The position numbers and the translations under genes are program-made. 22,716 nucleotides of DNA from Chromera velia. Lineage: Eukaryota; Sar; Chromeraceae. Location: NCBI GenBank assembly GCA_018398765.1, contig JAHBMJ010002173.1:81844-104559 (forward strand), in the 5' to 3' direction. The first letter of the stretch is position 1; the number at the start of each line of letters is the position of its first letter. The notes under the pieces are model-generated. The model ran no database searches, was not told the origin of the DNA, and was given only the letters and a program-made list of their open reading frames with translations. Of this stretch, positions 2,479-21,954 are shown piece after piece.

Positions 2479-5400
2479 CTACAACGTGCACTGGAAAAAG
2501 TTTTTGAGCACTGTCTGCATGCTGCTACTGAGACTCTTTCCCACCCGCACGTCCCCCAACAGAGGGACCCGTCCCGCCCCTGCCAGCCCTATGAGTGCCA
2601 ACACCCCCTCATCTCCCACGGCGGTTCCGGACAAATCCAGTTTCTCTAGAGGGGGGGGGGTTACATCTCCCCATGCTTTGACCATTTTTTTCAGAACGGC
2701 ATCGTTCACCCTACCGAGTTTCAGACATCGCAACTCTAGCAGCTTCTCTGCAGACAAAGCCTGACAGAAAGCAGCTGTCGCGTCATCGTTATCAGGGGGC
2801 CCGCTCGGCAACTCCAGAGAACGGAGAGGCCGCAGCTTCCCACTCCCCAACCCCACACAAAGAGCAGAGAGGCTCTCTGTAAAGAGCTCACCCTGTAACG
2901 ATAGCTTTTTCAGCCCTGTAAGCTGCCAAAAAAATTTAAAGCGACTGAAAGAGCTGACATCTGAGCAGCTTCGCATGTCTGAGTTTTCACGTTGTCACTT
3001 CTCTCTATTAACCTTACGGTCAGACTTCTGAGAGACTTTGCGTGAAGGGAACAGAGGGCGAGGTGCATGCCCTCCCGCCTAATGTAAGCGTCCAAATTTC
3101 GAAGACGCGGAAACTTGCCTTTTGTGATGCATTCGGAAAGCGGGTGGGCAGCTGGAACGTCAGATGGAAAGAAGTCTGGGACAGAGATTGTGTGGAGGGA
3201 AGGGAGGGAACCCCTCCCGGATGCAACGCCTCTGAAGAGGGCGGATACCAACCCCGTTTCAGACTCAAGCTTAAGGCCAAAGTCAAGCTCTTCAAAGGAC
3301 TGAAGGCTGACCACTGGCACCCCCACTCTGCCCCCCCCACCAGTCAATGCTGCACCGAGATCGTATGCAGCCTCCCCTACCCGATTGAAGTCAGCGACCT
3401 CCATCTTCCAGAGCCCTGGGACTTTCCTCTCACGGATGAGGGCAGCTACTGCTCTCACGGCTGCTGTGGTGAGGCCTTCGTTGTCTTCGAAGATCACGGG
3501 GACCAAAGAAAGGTCCACTATCAAATGGGGAGAAAGAGAACCCACCCCTAATCCCTCTGTGAAGGCCTGAAGGCTGCTGTCAATATGCCACTCCAGCCAC
3601 AAATTTTGAAGGGATGGTACCTTGTCACTGCTCAAAACTTCCCCCAACTCTCTGCAACCGTTTCCCTCCCCATCCCCACGTACCATTGAGAGAGACAGCA
3701 TCTCAAGGGACACAAGGCTCCCCGACCCCAGACCCTCTGCAAGGGCCCCCACAGCCTCATCCCCTATCCCATCCCATGTCAACGAGTCGTGACAACGACA
3801 GCCGTCGGAGCGACGACCCCCTCCCTGACCCTAATGCATTTCCGAATTCCCTCAATGGCCCAGGAAGGAGAGGAACTCCTGTGGTCTCAAAGAACAAATT
3901 CAGGTCTTCCAGTGTACCTGCGCTCCCCGCCCTGTACCCCTCTGCCAAGGCGCCCAAAACATCATTCATTTCTCCTTGTTCTGAGTCGTAAGCAGTGATT
4001 TCCAAATCCAAAGTGCGTAGTGAGGGAGTGCGACCGCTCATCAAGCTACGTGTGACGATGCCGACTTCTCCTGTCTGATGTCTGTCAACCAGCGCGACCT
4101 CTCGCAGATCTGAGAGGTGACCGGAATCGATAGCAGAGGCGAATGCTTCACTGTACAGTTCTGGGATACTGAGCGTTTCAACGTGGGGGGTTCTGCCAGT
4201 TGAGAGGGCGGTGAAGACAGCGGTCATATCTACCTCTCGCATCGCGGTCTCAGCAAGGTTCAACGTTCTGAGACTCACTGCCGACAAGCGCCCCCCCTCT
4301 AGAGCCTCATCGATCGTCGGAGCAGCGGATTCAGCACTATTAATACCGGGGCCAAGAAGCCAGACTGAGTTCCCACTCATGTCCAGCTCCTGCAAGGCAG
4401 GGAACTAATGAGAGAACAGAGCGGTCAAACCACTGATATCCCACCTCCCGTCCCTACTTCTCTCTGCAACGCAATTGTTCTTCAAAATGAGGACCCTCAG
4501 GGACGAGAGGGTCCCCGCCCCCACCGCCCCCGCTAACCCCCCCACACCCTCTGCCCTCATGTCGTTGCCCCGCAAGTCAAGCACCTGCAGAGAGGGTGCC
4601 TTCCCTTCCTTCAAAGGTACGCTCAGCGCCTTCACCCCCTCTGCCTTGGCGGCTGTCTTGCTCAATTTGAGGGACTGCAGGTGAAGTGCCCGCTCGGAAG
4701 CGGACAGTCCCCTTGCCAGCGTCGCCACTCCAGAGGGGCTCAGAGGGTTGTTGCTGACATCCAGGCCCAGAAGCTTCGAGAGAGTGCCCTCACTGAAAGC
4801 CGACGTGAGGGCTTCCATGCTGTGCGACCCGAGTCGGTTCTCTGCATCCATGCACAAAAATGATAAAGAGTGGAGGACTATGAGGATGATTTTCGGGTGG
4901 TCAGCCTCCCCTTTCTCTTGAGCGCTCTATACCTACGTGCAGAAATGGGAAAAGGAAAGGGGAAGGAGAGAGGCCCGCCAGAGCGGCGGAAGAATCTCAC
5001 CGTAGGACAGAAAAGACGCAAAGACGGTTGAAAAAAAAGAATGGAGAATTTGAGAAGAGTGGAACTCCCACCCTCACCGTTTAACTCCAGGTATTCCAGA
5101 GAAGGCGGCAGAGAGTGAAGCTCGGACCCCCCTCCAGAGTCACTCAGGTCACACTCTGCAGAGAAACCCAAAATAATTCCAAAACAATCCAAAATAATTC
5201 AAAACAATTCAAAATAATTCCAGAGAAGGCGGCAGAGAGTGAAGAAGGGACCCCCCCCCAGAGTCACTCAGGTCACACTCTGCAGAGAGCATATAGAAAG
5301 AACAATTCGGGATCTGTCCGCCCAGACGGAGGAAACACGGCGGCAAGGAAGAAGAAATCACTTTGGGGTCTCGCCGATAATTGAAGGCACATGCATCGCG

Positions 5401-7812
5401 ATTGAGGTGAAGGAGACAGAAAGAACACTTGTTCTCTTTCTTTGCCCGCCCTCGTCAGCATAGATTGATAGACAGGTGGACGGTCATCACAAAGAGATAT
5501 ATACCTGAATGAGCAGATGGCGGCGGCCACAACTACTCTCAGGCACTTCCATCCTTTGAACACAGAGTCGGTCATGCATGCCAAGGAACGTTGCAGAAAG
5601 GCACGTCGCTCCACAAGCAATCCCAATGACATCCATCACCCGCGTACTTCACGCAACAATTTGGAACGAGATGCGCTTCTGAATCAGCGACTGCTAGCTC
5701 CCTACCACGCCGACAGAATTCGGAATCCCCTTACGCCCATCGACCGACTTGCGATATTCAAATTCTTCAAAGAAGCTGGAGGTGAGCTTGAAGCTGCTCT
5801 CTGAAGGAATCGTTTAAGAGCGAAGAGACAGGGACCCGTGCATACATGGGGCCCTGAACGCAACCAGGAGGGAATAGGAGAAAGGTGAATTAGACAGGAT
5901 TTTCTTGGTATTTTTTTGTATTTTTTGTGTATTTTTTTGTGAAGGAATCGTTTGAGAGCGAGCAAAGAGGGACCCGTGCACACGTGCAGCCCTGAACGCA
6001 ACCAGGAGGGAAGACAAGAAAGGTGAATTAGACGTGCACCTCTTCACTGCTCCCTGTCCTTCAAGGCTGTGTGCCATACAGAACCGAGGATCGGAATGAA
6101 GGGCAGGGAAATTCAACCACGGGAGGCAGCTAGAAACAGGCATGCATAGATGGCGACGAGGGATCGAACGATCGAGTGGGGGGGGATTGACGGACGGACA
6201 GGGAACTGGGAGGGAACAAAGTGTGTTGGGGAGACAATAGCACCCCATCGACTCACCCCCCTTGAGAGTCTCCAGAAAATCGGGCCCCGCGGGAAGAGAG
6301 GACAGAAGGACACCCAGCTTCCCTGCATCAAGCGAGAACTCTGCACATACACACACACACTCACACACATCCATTCTCATATCTGCAAGAACAAACGCCA
6401 ATTTCGTTCCTTCAGTCCTGTCGAGAGTGCAACAGAGTGACAAACTTTGTTCCTTCAGTCCTGTCGAGAGTGCAACAGAGTGACAAACTTCGTTCCTTCA
6501 GTCCTGTCGAGAGTGCAACAGAGTGACAAACTTCGTTCCTTCAGTCCTGTCGAGAGTGCAACAGAGTGACAAACTTCGTTCCTTCAGGCCTGTCGAGAGT
6601 GCAACAGAGTGACAAACTTCGTTCCTTCAGTCCTGTCGAGAGTGCAACAGAGTGACAAATCAGAGACGCAGGCCCACAGAGAGGGACAGGGAGAGAGAAA
6701 AGGGCGGAAAAGGGAGACATGGAGAGACAGGAAGGAACTGAGAAGACCGGGAAGGAACGCGAGGGAGGGCGGGAGTGTTGTTTTTTTTTCCCTTCCCCCC
6801 TGCATTCATTTTCCTCCCGCCTTTTTTTGCATTTTTTTGCATTTTTTTGCATTTTATTTTTTTGGTATTTTCTTTTTTCCAAGACCAGGTCTAGCGCTGT
6901 CTAGCCGTTTCCCTAGCGCCTCCCTTTCCCTCCCTGTCTGTCCACACAGACCCCCGCACCCACCCACTTGAGAGATCCAGATCCCGGAGGGGCGCGCCGG
7001 CTTCCATCTGCAGAGGCGAATACAAAATGCAGCTTTAAAAATGTGTGTGTGGGCCCGGGGGGGGTAGAAGGACAAAACAAGAGAGGTGGAGAGAGAAAGA
7101 AAGAAAAAGGGGGCCGGAGGGGGGGTAAAAAAAGAACAGGAGAGGGAGGGACAGAAACATGCAACGGGCTCTGTGTCGATCTGGCACCTTTCTGGCTGAA
7201 ATCGAAGAGGGGCCTCGAATCTTCTCGAAAAAAATGCAAAAAAATACAAAACAAATACAAAAAAATGTTGACTGACAAAAAAATACTGGCACCTTTCTGG
7301 CTGAAATCGAAGAGGGGCCTCGAATCTTCCCACCCGCACGACTTCTCTTTTCTCGTGGTCGTTCACTGGAACATGCGTGTGGAGCTAGCATGCAGGCTTT
7401 CTGAGGCTGACCTGTTTGATAAAATGCAGGACCAGCCATCCCGTTGCGAATCCATCCTTGTGTGACGCCAACTCTGAAATCAGCTGCATCAGATCAGAGA
7501 GAGAGGCATTGAATGGAATTCAAATTGAAGGCTGCCAGGCTGCGCCCCCTAAGGGGCACTCGAAACAGCAATAAGCGGTTAGTGGGAGAGTGGCAGTGAC
7601 AGGGAAATGCTCCGACACCCGAATCCATGCAGTCATGAGAAAAAAAATGGAGACAGAGGACATACAGCTAGAAGAAACGGAAACGTAGACGGACGGAAAG
7701 CGCGCAGGCAGCCGCCCCCCCCACGCACCTGTGCCGGCGGACTGCTGTGGGAGACAATGGCAGAGAGCGCAGAGGCGCAAATGTCTACCGGCTCGTCACT
7801 AACAGTCTCCAT
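2479..7812 (-). CDS. Multi-exon leucine-rich-repeat protein, last exon disrupted
   Basis: Ribonuclease-inhibitor-type LRR protein of roughly 890 residues, role unknown; such proteins usually act as protein-binding scaffolds. My model has six exons: 7812-7729 (ATG, 28 codons, begins METVSDEPVDICASAL), 7007-6968, 6340-6257, 5853-5749, 5155-5078 and 4841-2479. The first junction is phase 0 and the rest are phase 1. Donors are GTGCGT, GTGGGT, GTGAGT, GTCGGT and GTGAGG; every acceptor is pyrimidine-led CAG. Joining restores LRR text across junctions, for example PLRDLDLS+KFSLDAGKLG, SLKNLNIA+KCDLSDSG and LEYLELN+ENRLGSHS. Small exons of 84, 105 and 78 nt each hold about one repeat. The large exon has more repeats but is interrupted: in-frame TAG at 4405-4407, a frame change near 3779-3786, and another in the A7/T7 run at 2928-2934. 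LRR register continues past each, so this is a young pseudogene, an assembly with base errors, or unrecognised short introns. No signal peptide or membrane segment was seen. Confidence 0.62.
5093..5288 (-). repeat. Duplicated exon start with acceptor, decamer spacer
   Basis: Positions 5093-5164 and 5217-5288 are near-identical 72-bp copies, 124 bp apart. On the minus strand each contains the acceptor CTCTGCAG and the start of LRR exon 5 (CDLSDSGGGS, then LHSLPPSLE). Only the 5093-5164 copy continues to a donor. The other lies within the preceding intron and runs into a stop. The spacer 5171-5220 is a near-perfect 10-bp array alternating AAAACAATTC and AAAATAATTC. Confidence 0.9.
5802..6033 (-). 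repeat. Duplicated exon start with acceptor, A-tract spacer
   Basis: Positions 5802-5895 and 5940-6033 are 94-bp copies, 138 bp apart, with a handful of differences. On the minus strand both carry the acceptor CTCCTGGTTGCGTTCAG followed by the beginning of LRR exon 4 (VCTGP, then ALKRFL). The copy at 5802-5895 is contiguous with the rest of the exon; the other is intronic. The 44-bp spacer 5896-5939 is GTATTTTTTTG-type repeats with a period of about 11. Confidence 0.85.
6403..6659. repeat. 43-bp tandem repeat, six copies, in an LRR intron
   Basis: Six nearly identical 43-bp units start at about 6405, 6448, 6491, 6534, 6577 and 6620. The unit includes CGTTCCTTCAGTCCTGTCGA and GAGTGCAACAGAGTGACAAA. 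It lies within the second intron of the minus-strand LRR gene, just upstream of exon 3. On the minus strand each unit contains an acceptor-like GCACTCTCGACAG. Because 43 is not a multiple of three, it cannot encode a regular peptide repeat. Confidence 0.95.
6823..6871. repeat. Phased T-tract array in LRR intron
   Basis: The plus strand shows TTTTTTTGCA repeated three times at a 10-bp period, followed by looser T tracts. On the transcribed minus strand this is phased A7 tracts, like those at 5896-5939 and 7225-7285. No coding role. Confidence 0.8.
7181..7329. repeat. 44-bp direct repeat with phased A-tract spacer
   Basis: Positions 7181-7224 and 7286-7329 are identical 44-bp copies (starting CTGGCACCTTTCTGGCTGAA). 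They flank 7225-7285, which is built of CAAAAAAATG and CAAAAAAATAC words at a 10-11 bp period. The pair lies in the first intron of the LRR gene. On the minus strand each copy has an acceptor-like CTTCGATTTCAG and an AAAG/GTGCCAG donor-like word, but no exon was assigned there. Confidence 0.95.
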
Positions 7813-10538: not shown

Positions 10539-10836
10539 GCTAGGCAGAAGAGGACGGACAGAGAGGGAGGGAAGGGCAGGGTGTCTGGTCGGTCACATGC
10601 ACCCGCGGGACCTGCAGTCGTTTGTTTTTATTTTCATACAGAATTCCTTCTGTTCTTTTTTTCTGTATGCAAGAATTCTGTATATCTCTCGTGGGCGGGG
10701 GGGGGGTCTCTCTGAAAGGCAGAGGGGGGGAAGAGAGAGCAGATAATTATGGAGGGCGGGAGATTTGAAAGTTGAAGTCGAATGAGAGAGTGTGTGCATA
10801 AGAGAGAGTGTGGGTTTTGTCTGATATATGTTGATT

Positions 10837-10867: not shown

Positions 10868-10910
10868 ATTGTTTTTGTACTTCGACAGCGGCCTCCTGCT
10901 GCAAACAAAC

Positions 10911-11026
10911 TGGAGAATGGCGGGCCATGGACACAGGTAGCGAGACAAACAGGAGAATGGCGGGCCATGGACACAGGTAGCGAGACAAACAGGAGAATGG
11001 CGGGCCATGGACACAGGTAGCGAGAC
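10911..11026. repeat. 40-bp tandem repeat, about 2.9 copies
   Basis: Units begin at 10911, 10951 and 10991 and are practically identical (GAGAATGGCGGGCCATGGAC, then ACAGGTAGCGAGACAAACAG). Each unit carries CAG/GTAGCG, a donor-like word, and ends in ACAAACAG, an acceptor-like word. It lies 370 bp beyond the acyltransferase stop. Confidence 0.95.
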
Positions 11027-11381: not shown

Positions 11382-11774
11382 CGTCCGTTTTTTGTTTCCG
11401 TTTTCCTTCCTTACCTATTCTTAACGGGCAGGGAGACACGCAGACAGAAGAGGCGACAGATATCGACAAAAAAAAACTCTTCTCCGTCTGTCAGTTTGAT
11501 GAGACTTTTTCTTTCTCTCGTTCATGGTTTGTTTATCTCCTTATTCTTCCTTGTTTGAGTGTCAGTCAAGGTTGCGTAGGTGTGCCGGTATGTTGTGATT
11601 CCGTCTGTCTGTCTTGTCTGTCTGGAGGGAGGGAGGGAGAAGAAGAAGAAACATATAGTCTGTCTGTCTGTCTGTTTCTATGTATTCGTTCATGGTTTGT
11701 TTATCTTCTTTGCGTAGGTGTGCAGGTATGTTGTGGTTCCAGCGCCCTCCATTCCAATCTTCCGTGACTGATGG

Positions 11775-12857: not shown

Positions 12858-13797
12858 CTGCAAAGACTTAGGAATTTAGACAGGAATTTAGATGAATTTA
12901 GACGGGAATTTAGAGGAATTTAGAGGAATTTGGCTAGGAATCTAAAGGAATTTAAAGATAGGAATTTAGAGGAATTTAGCAATTTTTGGAGGTCGATTTC
13001 TTGTGAATTATGATGACTTAGAACTTGATATTAACGGTGCTAAGACCTCCTTGAACCAGTGAAATATGGTTTGGGTCCAATTGGTAGGACCCATGCGATA
13101 GGTACCGCGCCGCCATGCGCAATATCCTTGTATTGACATTTGTGGAAACCATATTTATGATATCCGTACACACTGTTGCACATCTGTTGTTTGATCAGGC
13201 TGAACAAGAAGTGTAGTGATCACTGATGGTTTGAGAAACTACAAAGGAGATGACACTCTCTTTAGAGTTGGAACCTTACAATGAATCCTTCACAAAGTAT
13301 GGACTCTACTCTCATACTATCATCCTTCCACTCTGTGTGTATGTAACACTCACACCATACATCTCCATAGATCGCTCCTAGCTCCCTTCCTCCGCCTGGG
13401 CAATTCCAGTATCTATTTTCACTGAACCTAACTACTACTTAAAAGTTTATGCCGCATTTTTGGATAAGCTTGAAAGTCCGCGCCGCAGGCGCAGATCATT
13501 TATGGTGTCTTAAAAGCCAAAGCCGCATATCTGGACGGTCTCTTGAAAAAAGATGCCACAGATAGAGATGATCTTGATTATATTTTTTCAAATGGTACTT
13601 AGGTTCAGGGAGGTTAGTGCTAATAGCTCTAATATAGCCTATTATATAGGTCTATAAGCACCGTTAATATCAAGTTCTAACTGATCATAGTTCACGAGAA
13701 ATCGACCTCCAAAGTTTAGGAATTTAGAGGTCTAAATTCCTTTAGATTCCTAACTAAATTCCTCTAAATTCCTGTCTAAATTCCTAGGTCTTTGCAG
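12858..13797. mobile_element. 940-bp foldback element with long inverted repeats
   Basis: The left end (12858-13041, starting CTGCAAAGACTTAGGAATTT) is the inverted match of the right end (about 13657-13797, ending AAATTCCTAGGTCTTTGCAG). The inner part of the arms is also matched: GGAGGTCGATTTC and AACTTGATATTAACGGTGCT on the left appear inverted on the right. Subterminal parts are clusters of GGAATTTAGA words at about 10-11 bp spacing, more numerous on the left. The central ~600 bp has no open frame of note and contains a short GGGTCC/GGACCC inverted repeat near 13072-13091. This fits a non-autonomous DNA transposon or foldback element. I could not see a target-site duplication, so the superfamily is undetermined. 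Confidence 0.75.
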
Positions 13798-14793: not shown

Positions 14794-15204
14794 TCAACAG
14801 TTCCTGTGCAAGGACATGCACAATTGTTGCATTTCTAGCAACGTCGTAGATGGGGTCCTCCTGTACCTCACCAGACTTCTCGTTCCTTCGGAATTTGCAT
14901 TTCTGCCAATTTCGCCGCGAGGGAAAAGCAGACGGACAGCAGTATCGATATCTCTCGCGCTCAAAGTCTTCCTCTTATTTTGTTTGCAAAGATTGCCAGC
15001 CTCCGAAGAAATCTTGTCGAATAAGTCGTGAAGAAGAGACTCCATGATCGACATGGACTTCTTGGAAATGCGCAAGCCGGGGTGGATCTGTTTCAGCATA
15101 TTGTAAACGTAAGATGCGTAGGTCTCTTTCCTCTTGGTGCGGCGCTTCTTCTTTTGAGACACCTTGACGGCGTGCTTTTTGAAGTCCTCTGCTTTGGGAG
15201 CCAT
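14794..15204 (-). CDS. Histone H2B, divergent
   Basis: Core histone of 136 residues that pairs with H2A in the nucleosome. Single exon; start at the ATG giving MAPKAEDFKKHAVK, chosen because the histone tail begins there although the frame is open further upstream. The fold's helices are recognisable: ETYASYVYNMLKQIHP (about 27-42), ISKKSMSIMESLLHDLFDKI (46-65), KTLSARDIDTAVRLLFP (79-95) and SEGTRSLVRY (105-114). Differences from canonical H2B: the tail before the fold is only about 25 residues; the LLPGEL loop reads LFPRGEIG, one residue longer; and about 20 extra residues follow the normal end (TPSTTLLEMQQL onward). A GTGAGG word at the RSL/VRY point could be a donor, but reading through matches the family better. 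It may be a variant histone rather than the bulk form. Confidence 0.9.
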   Translation of the reverse strand: MAPKAEDFKKHAVKVSQKKKRRTKRKETYASYVYNMLKQIHPGLRISKKSMSIMESLLHDLFDKISSEAGNLCKQNKRKTLSARDIDTAVRLLFPRGEIGRNANSEGTRSLVRYRRTPSTTLLEMQQLCMSLHRNC

Positions 15205-15936
15205 CTTGAAGTTTGCAGACCAATTATCAGTGTACAAAGGGATACAAAGGGCAGGGAGCACAGAGTGAGGCGGGATTCCACCTAGCTGCACAAATCAACT
15301 GTCAGTGACGGGAATCAAGCTGCTGCCGTGAAAACTGATCGAATGTCATGCATGCTTCATGCAATTAGCACTTTGCATGCGTGCATGTGTGTCTCGCCGT
15401 GCGGACTCATTGCAGGTGGGGGACCGTGCTCGTGTGGTCCGGTGTGGTCTCCGAAAGGGGGGACGTCCTCTTCGAACCTCTGGTCTTCTTTGCCGTCTCC
15501 CGTGCAGAGAACATGCCGTCTCCCCTAACTATCTTGCGCTCATGCAGCCTCACCGCGGCGGCGCGGATGTATGTCATTTTTTGCCCGCGGCGCGCCGCCG
15601 AAAAAAAAGGCCAGACGCGTTGAGAGGAGACGAGCCTGCAGGACCTCCACAAGGTACGTCTGCGGGAGTTCCTTGGGCTGTACATGGCTGTACTGCCACC
15701 CCCCCCCTCCCCGCACCCCTTTTGCATGCCTGTTTCTGCCCGCCTCCTGACAACGAAAGGTGCTTTCATTCATTCTGGCTCGAGAGCACTCTTTGACTGC
15801 ATTCCGTCTCCAGCCGTCTCTAGTTGGATTGATTGCATTTTCAACCTCAAGCATGCACTCTCACGCATACATCTCTGGCCATCTTTGTCCCCCCCACCTG
15901 TATCCATCCTGTGACTGCTGACTGTCTGTCTGCGTG
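15205..15936. promoter_or_regulatory. Divergent intergenic region, H2B and NTPase genes
   Basis: The 732 bp between the H2B start and the first ATG chosen for the NTPase gene should hold both promoters. A strong donor (CACAAG/GTACGT) at 15653-15654 suggests an upstream plus-strand exon, coding or 5' UTR. An ATG at 15542 opens a 37-codon exon (MQPHRGGADVCHFL start) ending in phase 1, which would join in frame to an acceptor at 15945-15946. No TATA box was identified. Confidence 0.4.
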
Positions 15937-20175: not shown

Positions 20176-21954
20176 TCGTGAAGACTTGCAATCGCCGCCC
20201 GTCCACAACACCCCCTCAACCCACCCCCCACCTTCCCCCTTTCTCCCATCCCCGCAACCCCTTCCTTGCTGTCCACTCTTCCCCGCCGTTTTCCTTTTGC
20301 CCCTCCGGCTGCTTGCAGGGCCTTTGCGCTTCCCTTCCCGTCACCCTTTGCGGGACCCTCAAGCTCTGCAGGACAGGAAGAGAGTCATTCACACACATGC
20401 ATTCATTTTCATATTAATACATACATACATACATGCATGCAACCTTTGCGGGACCCTCAAGCTCTGCAGAACAGAAAGAGAGTCATGCACACACACGCAT
20501 ATGCGGACATCAGACAAAGAAGATCATATGTTCAAATGTGCACAGGCGTTTGTGCATGCAGAAGGAGGCCTTGCACTCTTTTCAGACACCCCCCTCGGAA
20601 TTCACGAAGTCTGCAAGAAGGAGACAAAAAAAATAGCGGAGAAATACCGGTCTCTTTCGCTCTCTCTCTTTCTCTGTGCGCGCGCGCGCGTGTGTGTGTG
20701 TGTGTTCTTGTGAATCCTTTTGAATCCCTTTCCATGAAACAGAGTGTTCTCTTCAACGCCTCTCTCTCTCGACCACTCACTCAGACACTTGCACTCACTG
20801 ACCTTCTTCCCCCTCTGCCGTGCTGGACCCCGACCGCGTCCCCATACATGAATGCATGAATACACGTACGTCTCTTGACGCACGCACTGACCTTCTTCCC
20901 CCTCTGCCGTGCTGGACCCCGACCGCGTCCCCGGAGTTGCCGTCGTTCCGCCGGCACCGTCTCCTCCTGGCCGTCTCCCCACAACTGCCGTCTCCTTCTC
21001 TTGCCGTCTCCTCTCCCCTTGTCTGAGGCCGTCTCCGTCCGTCTCCTCCTCGATCGAAGGCTCGTGCGAGCCGTCTTGTATTGGGGGGGGCACACAGTCC
21101 TGCCCGTTCACCAGCATGTGTCCCGGAAAGATCAAGTCAGGCGGCATGCGTGCGTCAGGCTGCATCCCGACAGGCAGGGGGTGAGCAGTGGGGGGATAGA
21201 GGACCCCGGCAGAATGGGCATCTGGCCGCGGGTGCATCATCAAGGGCCCAGGTGGGCCCGTGGGCCCCGGCATCGGAGGTCTTCCGAATGCGAGGGTTCC
21301 GGGCCCCCCCCGGGGCCCCGTCTGGCCCTGCCGGGGTGTCCGCAGAGGCGGCAGGTCGCCTGTGTTGTTCGGGTGGGGGCGGGCCCCAGTGCCCTTCAGG
21401 TAAGCGAGGCGTTTGTTTCTGGGTGTCTGTCCGGGAGGGGGGGGGGGTTGCTGACTGGCAGACGAGTCGGAAGAAGTGGAAGGCCCCGGCATACCACTGG
21501 ACGTGCATGGGGTGGGGGAGGGCCCACTGGTCGCAGGGGGCATCCATGGCGGCGGGGCGGACTGGTTCCCTTGAGAGGGCGGCGGAACGGACGCTTGCTG
21601 TATGATGAGGGGCGTGTTACAGAAGAAAAGAAAAGACATCATGACGACATCCGACGGACAGACAAAAGAAGACTTTTAGAACACGACAAGGCAACGTCAA
21701 AGAAAGTGCTGGCCACGAAAAATGAACAAATGAAGGGAACCGAACCAGAAAAAAGTTAAAAAGGCCATGCAGCCAGCCACCCTCATCATCCACCCACCAA
21801 GGGCAGAGAGCAAAGGAAGAACATTTGATCGTTTTGGCAGGAAATTGATCGATCAAGCAGTCGGGAGGGAGGTACAGAAGAAAAGAAAGGAAAGGAAGGG
21901 ATCTTCATTCCTTCCAAGAAAGGGGTAACGAAAACAAAGAAAGAAAAAAAGAAG

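Follow-up and report, generated by a model that had tools for sequence, protein, structure and literature searches.

End joining at breaks made by paired nicks on opposite strands adds filler sequence, and transposases duplicate a target of fixed length. Tandem duplications that arise when paired nicks or staggered breaks are repaired have been reported (Schiml 2016; Vaughn & Bennetzen 2014; both as named in PMC5730883), and the sections of PMC5730883 drawn on here indicate that such duplications can arise simply from the mending of breaks that have long overhangs. Repeated staggered breaks have been proposed for Daphnia introns, with repeats of 4–17 bases (excerpts of PMC4202315), and repeats of 4–30 bp have been described near splice sites (PMC11782384, in part). 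For retrotransposons, the portions of PMC2912911 used here mention "extremely long" target duplications at 5′-truncated L1 insertions in cell culture and explain inverted ends by twin priming from one template, and in the relevant section of PMC2996970 the duplications of two-repeat Entamoeba SINEs are mostly 18–24 bp.

We examined a predicted minus-strand intron (20891–20366) and its flanks (20342–20932) in the window, by which we mean the whole stretch of 22,716 bases analysed. Both intron ends are doubled inward, as an earlier note on this DNA had claimed. On the donor side, a 53-nt target occurs twice with 98% identity at a spacing of 89. The outer copy (20880–20932) contains the exon end and the GTCAGTG donor (GGGGGAAGAAG/GTCAGTG, where the slash marks the boundary, 20892/20891), while the inner copy (20791–20843) carries an intact donor at 20803/20802 that would shift the frame. 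On the acceptor side, a 61-nt target is repeated with 92% identity at a spacing of 98. Its outer copy (20342–20402) spans the intron end, the acceptor at 20366/20365 (CCTGTCCTGCAG/AGC) and the exon start, and its inner copy (20440–20500) carries an intact CTGCAG acceptor at 20464/20463, use of which leads to a stop. The copies do not lie back to back, as an AT-rich insert, absent from the earlier note, separates them in each pair. The target on the donor side is unrelated in sequence to that on the acceptor side, and the two are thus not the ends of a single duplication, in keeping with the note's description of two separate events.

Joining the outer donor to the outer acceptor gives a predicted intron of 526 nt. 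To choose among the possible junctions, we used a script to compare how many amino acids stay open after the junction in six donor/acceptor pairs. These included a strong third acceptor-like site between the duplications (minus strand, 20611–20635; CTCCTTCTTGCAG/ACTTC at 20611/20610), which the earlier note did not list. The outer pair kept the frame open for 64 aa past the junction, the longest of the six, followed by the inner donor with the outer acceptor (49 aa), the inner donor with the inner acceptor (24 aa) and the outer donor with the inner acceptor (16 aa, then TAA). With the third acceptor, a stop came within 9 aa from either donor (9 aa from the outer, 2 aa from the inner). The frame therefore favours splicing through the outer pair, which the note had named as the working pair, but does not settle it, because the inner donor with the outer acceptor is also open for 49 aa. 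The note's reading of the inner copies as intact yet off-frame or stopping, which would make them decoys, agrees with these predictions, as does its statement that the inner acceptor leads to TAA after the outer donor.

The predicted splice sites resemble others in this genome. Introns inferred by homology in three TCP1-family chaperonin genes, whose ends we read by eye at the exon edges of profile matches, have donors such as G/GTCAGT and G/GTGAGT (with some variants) and TGCAG-type acceptors. Since these are alike, the sites at 20892 and 20366 appear to be of the local genome type, and the U2-type GT...AG ends of the predicted intron match the genome's homology-inferred introns. A genome search in which 40 of 262 candidates were scored found no paralogue of this intron, as non-self matches fell only in its simple-repeat part; a single-target empty site was therefore not seen there.

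Of ten frames in the window searched against Pfam, eight gave no match, one matched LRR families and one matched histone-fold families, with a single weak match to a ligase as well. The histone H2B-like frame lies on the minus strand at 14794–15294 (Pfam Histone E = 1.1e-18, with PDB H2B matches). Rfam, tRNA and phage searches gave no matches. Three 40-bp tandem copies at 10905–11026 each contain a donor-like ACAG/GTAGCG, and a large inverted repeat at 12858–13797, with 67-nt arms that are 90% identical and 806 nt apart, contains AGGAATTTAG repeats and may be a hairpin or a transposon.

We determined whether duplications like those at the intron ends occur by chance. A repeat finder run on 257,024 readable bases recovered 31 local duplications, both intron-end pairs among them; in 18 the copies were spaced. 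Three first-order Markov resamples of the fetched sequence yielded none. Thus, the intron-end pairs are not chance repeats. Spacer GC was at most 0.40 in 10 of the 18 spaced duplications (one of these spacers is only 5 nt long); in the other eight it exceeded 0.40, which does not fit the picture of an AT-rich insert.

Three more structures in the window consist of a target, an insert and a second copy of the target. At 5093–5288, a 72-nt target (5093–5164 and 5217–5288) flanks a 52-nt insert (5165–5216); at 5802–6033, a 94-nt target (5802–5895 and 5940–6033) flanks a 44-nt insert (5896–5939); and at 7181–7329, a 44-nt target (7181–7224 and 7286–7329) flanks a 61-nt insert (7225–7285). The GC content of these inserts is 0.20–0.21, compared with 50% for the whole window. 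When window positions 4950–7420 were used to query the genome (177.8 Mb in 4040 contigs), diverged paralogues turned up on two contigs, C2067 and C2236; their matches to the window are interrupted no more than 3 nt from the inserts at 5896–5939 and 7225–7285. Alignment to four short stretches from these contigs revealed a single target with both flanks on C2067 for all three structures, and also on C2236 for the one at 5802–6033. Since the paralogues have one target and joined flanks, the polarity of the change is insertion of AT-rich sequence with duplication of a 44–94 bp target. The same region contains a six-fold array of a 43-bp unit (6403–6659), represented by a single unit in the C2067 and C2236 paralogues, to judge from the overlap of the match coordinates. 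At 11572–11740, a 31-nt duplication (94%) surrounds a 107-nt simple-repeat spacer and is possibly an older event of the insertion kind.

The earlier note considered two duplications at one intron unlikely by chance. The local density of such structures argues otherwise. Our density survey covered 235,925 readable bases including the window, with loci L010–L018 taken around simple-repeat hits and L019–L027 from contig starts; as the sample was partly chosen, its figures are rough. The window's 22,716 bases contain five target-insert-target structures, compared with six in the 213,209 bases outside it, indicating that the window itself is a cluster. When five structures are placed randomly in 22.7 kb, some pair falls within 450 bp with P = 0.34. 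Given this local density, two insertions in one intron need no special cause, although the argument is limited by the higher density of the window relative to the remaining sample. A second close pair occurs in L013 (7891–8037 and 8184–8335).

The fillers in L010 and L013 have a palindromic sequence in common, which belongs to a family with a 23-nt end motif, ATTCTGYATGAAAATAAATGCAT, and the ending ATTCTGTATGAAAATAAATGCA. With at most two mismatches allowed, the genome contains 524 matches to the motif in the forward and 498 in the reverse orientation, whereas the reversed control has none. The total of 1,022 counts motif matches and is a lower bound, in which tandem arrays and the two arms of one insert are scored apart. 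We fetched 16 family loci from the zero-mismatch plus-strand matches, skipping some; those on C307 and C675 have neighbouring copies. Long direct repeats hug the insert at all 16, with alignment scores of at least 21, whereas among 2000 random 238-mers a score of 15 is attained by 114, the highest of which (70–80) reflect background repeats. The flanking repeats are 21–55 nt long at 14 loci; at the other two they measure 71 and 91 nt and take in a portion of a second insert. When locus L052 was used as a query, all 19 non-self matches were confined to the insert (positions 92–149 of 238), revealing that the insert recurs at many sites whose flanks are unrelated; this search, at one family locus, returned insert matches only and no empty site.

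Family inserts often have inverted arms. These were significant (P < 0.05) in 14 of the 19 inserts tested and not significant in L037, L042, L049, L010 and L031; the set did not include L040, L046 or the second insert of L013. The interior differs from insert to insert and frequently contains further pieces of the end motif. Where their bounds are clean, inserts measure 36–79 nt and are of at least two kinds, the palindromic family and T/A-rich runs of approximately 10-mers. Some target-plus-insert units form arrays, with a spacing of 119 bp on C3687 and units of 96 bp in L019. Family matches are also regularly spaced on C3687 (~119 bp), C675 (~71 bp), C3776 (~97 bp), C19 (~84 and 135 bp) and C710 (~73 bp), which suggests that target-plus-insert units have grown into minisatellites. 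A further family member, without obvious flanking duplication, lies on the minus strand of the window at 10622–10644.

How do the inserts at the intron ends relate to this family? The acceptor-side insert (minus strand, 20397–20442) comprises 40 nt at 20403–20442 and up to 46 nt when the ambiguous edge ATGCAT is included, with TATGAAAATGAATGCAT at the edge between insert and target. It has the family end motif at 20397–20419, the last 6 bases of which fall within the repeated segment. Its score against the motif, 15 of a possible 22, was reached by none of 1000 shuffles (P = 0.001); its arms were not significant (P = 0.11). Because the motif's PWM score is 17.1 and one Markov resample of the sample reaches 18.1 by chance, the match counts only through its place. 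The donor-side insert (minus strand, 20844–20879; 36 nt, AT 0.61) matched neither the family motif (P = 0.097) nor a palindromic-arm pattern (P = 0.71), and its family cannot be assigned from its sequence. Thus, one or both of the intron-end inserts probably belong to the palindromic family as diverged members. Palindromic arms were not significant in any of the five window inserts, and the three T/A-rich sister inserts fall outside the family. Since these three lie outside it and the donor-side insert is unassigned, what the intron-end inserts, the other window inserts and the family have in common is, to judge from their sequences, architecture. The same kind of insertion is, by the motif and flank comparisons, present at many other places in the genome.

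Together, these results make it highly probable that an ordinary spliceosomal intron, already in place, was hit by two independent insertions, one at each end, with each AT-rich insert duplicating its target. In each event, a 36–46 nt AT-rich insert would have been placed and the surrounding 53–61 bp target duplicated. Because the targets spanned the donor and acceptor junctions, each insertion would leave two copies of the splice site, an outer one that borders the exon and is in frame, and a decoy within the intron. Use of the outer pair, which the frame favours, would leave the protein unchanged. The stagger could come from opposite-strand nicks approximately 20–95 nt apart, with fill-in of the overhangs yielding the duplication and a short insert captured or synthesised at the break. 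In the palindromic family, a single short template may be copied by both free 3′ ends, which would then anneal close to the AATT at its centre; copying of one template by both 3′ ends would result in inverted ends, as in L1 twin priming.

We put forward more tentatively, and as something short of an even bet, that these inserts represent an undescribed class of ultra-short mobile insert (approximately 36–79 nt, non-coding and often palindromic). Such inserts would integrate at breaks staggered by 20–95 nt, where both 3′ ends copy one short template and anneal mid-way, giving inverted ends and long, variable duplications. There would probably have been thousands of these events, which doubled exons, junctions and each other and seeded minisatellites at C3687, C675, C3776 and C19. 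Among the matches listed in our search of the open-licence literature, we found no description of such inserts.

A model without any mobile element is a serious possibility, which we likewise hold at rather less than even. Here, paired opposite-strand nicks and fill-in of the overhangs yield the tandem duplication, end joining supplies the filler, and the likeness among inserts comes from polymerase slippage on AT-rich palindromic sequence. The donor-side and T-rich inserts, which match no family, and the variable target length (21–94 nt) are consistent with this model. It also has precedents in the tandem duplications formed from breaks with 46-nt overhangs (part of PMC5730883) and in the staggered-break repeats of new Daphnia introns (part of PMC4202315). 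However, approximately 1000 motif matches with a common 23-nt end are unexpected for pure filler, as are the inverted arms in 14 of the 19 family inserts tested.

Those same features, the inverted ends and the many motif matches, would fit a model in which the palindromic inserts are non-autonomous, MITE-like DNA transposons moved by a transposase with an exceptionally wide and variable stagger. Empty sites also fit, although none of the three sister structures that have them belongs to the palindromic family. We regard this model as unlikely. The flanking repeats are not of a fixed, short length but range between 21 and 55 nt at 14 loci, while the longest transposase duplication among the cases we compared is the 16–28 bp of the bacterial IS1202 group (PMC10132070, in part). 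Insert interiors are not conserved, and inspection by eye of the places listed revealed no long copy with the same ends.

Both targets at 20342–20932 straddle junctions, and the earlier note suggested a process that copies exon-intron junctions, which could be linked to the spliceosome or to R-loops. Some other targets resemble these two. In L041, an acceptor is doubled, with CTCTGCAG on either side of a palindromic insert, and the exon that follows the outer copy matches methylenetetrahydrofolate reductase, with E = 0.0018 in a PDB search and a hit to Pfam MTHFR_C (E = 0.0031) that falls short of the curated cut-off. By eye, L050 and L047 resemble doubled acceptors and L046 a doubled donor, with weak protein matches for L050 and L047 (E = 0.66 and 0.18) and none for L046. 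To quantify this, we scored consensus splice sites in 25 other targets (16 family loci, six from the fetched sample and three from the window, leaving out the two intron-end targets). Four contained one (L041, L045, L013b and 5093–5288), compared with 4.8% of random segments, a weak excess; L046, L047 and L050 were not counted by consensus. A site in either copy of a target was scored as yes, while random segments had a single copy, and random segments containing N were passed over yet still counted in the denominator; for these reasons the excess is not established. As 21 of the 25 targets lack a consensus site, and since selection against exon insertions would be expected to enrich junctions and introns among survivors in any case, we consider a junction-specific process very improbable.

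We also considered whether the family prefers splice acceptors. This was first suggested by 155 exact 17-mer matches, in 15 of which (on 10 distinct contigs) TGCAG comes directly after the insert end; TGCA comes after it in 50 of the 155. The base after TGCA is G in 15 of these 50 matches and in 1083 of 3564 background occurrences. Since G follows TGCA at the background rate, the data indicate a preference for TGCA or a variable insert end and do not single out TGCAG acceptors. We rejected the idea, and the same counts speak against a junction-copying process.

The note also raised the birth of the intron from a tandem duplication. Such an origin, from an exonic segment that contains AGGT, is scarcely credible: although the donor-side target contains AAG/GT and an 89-nt duplication could in principle splice out seamlessly, 526 nt separate the donor from the acceptor, the targets that hold them are unrelated, and no pyrimidine tract accompanies the AG in the inner donor copy.

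Doubled splice junctions need not imply a junction-specific mechanism. The origin of introns, decoy splice sites and local duplications is an old question, and the events described here form a large set in which a tiny insert duplicates a target of 20–95 bp, with at least three empty sites kept in paralogues. This makes the mutational step testable with respect to stagger length, template, target preference, and the rate at which junctions are doubled and survive.

Of the described systems, the products of staggered-break repair, as set out in the excerpts cited above, resemble the structures here in having variable direct repeats and in being able to lie in introns or overlap splice sites. 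They differ in that many inserts here share a 23-nt end and inverted arms, and the Daphnia repeats, at 4–17 bases in the part of PMC4202315 used, differ in length. MITEs and introners, as portrayed in portions of PMC9860276 and PMC7789003, are alike in their shortness, inverted ends in many families, genome-wide repetition and association with introns. However, the repeats that flank them are 3–9 bp for previously known introners (PMC9860276) and 3–5 nt for Amoebophrya introners (PMC7789003), compared with 21–94 bp here. Moreover, an introner supplies an intron, while an insert here doubles a junction of an intron that already exists; at this locus, the inserts lie inside the 526-nt predicted intron, whose ends are in two different targets, and so neither insert is itself the intron. 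Target-primed retrotransposition of L1 and SINEs, as partly documented in the sources above, also produces target duplications of variable length, as seen at the family loci (21–55 nt at 14 of 16), but the inserts here are only 36–79 nt long, no LINE or SINE body was recognised in them, and the duplications exceed those of most two-repeat Entamoeba SINEs (18–24 bp). Finally, the bacterial IS1202 group, as presented in part of PMC10132070, shares with the family a combination of inverted ends and unusually long target duplication; its elements encode their own transposase and duplicate 16–28 bp, and the duplications here are longer still.
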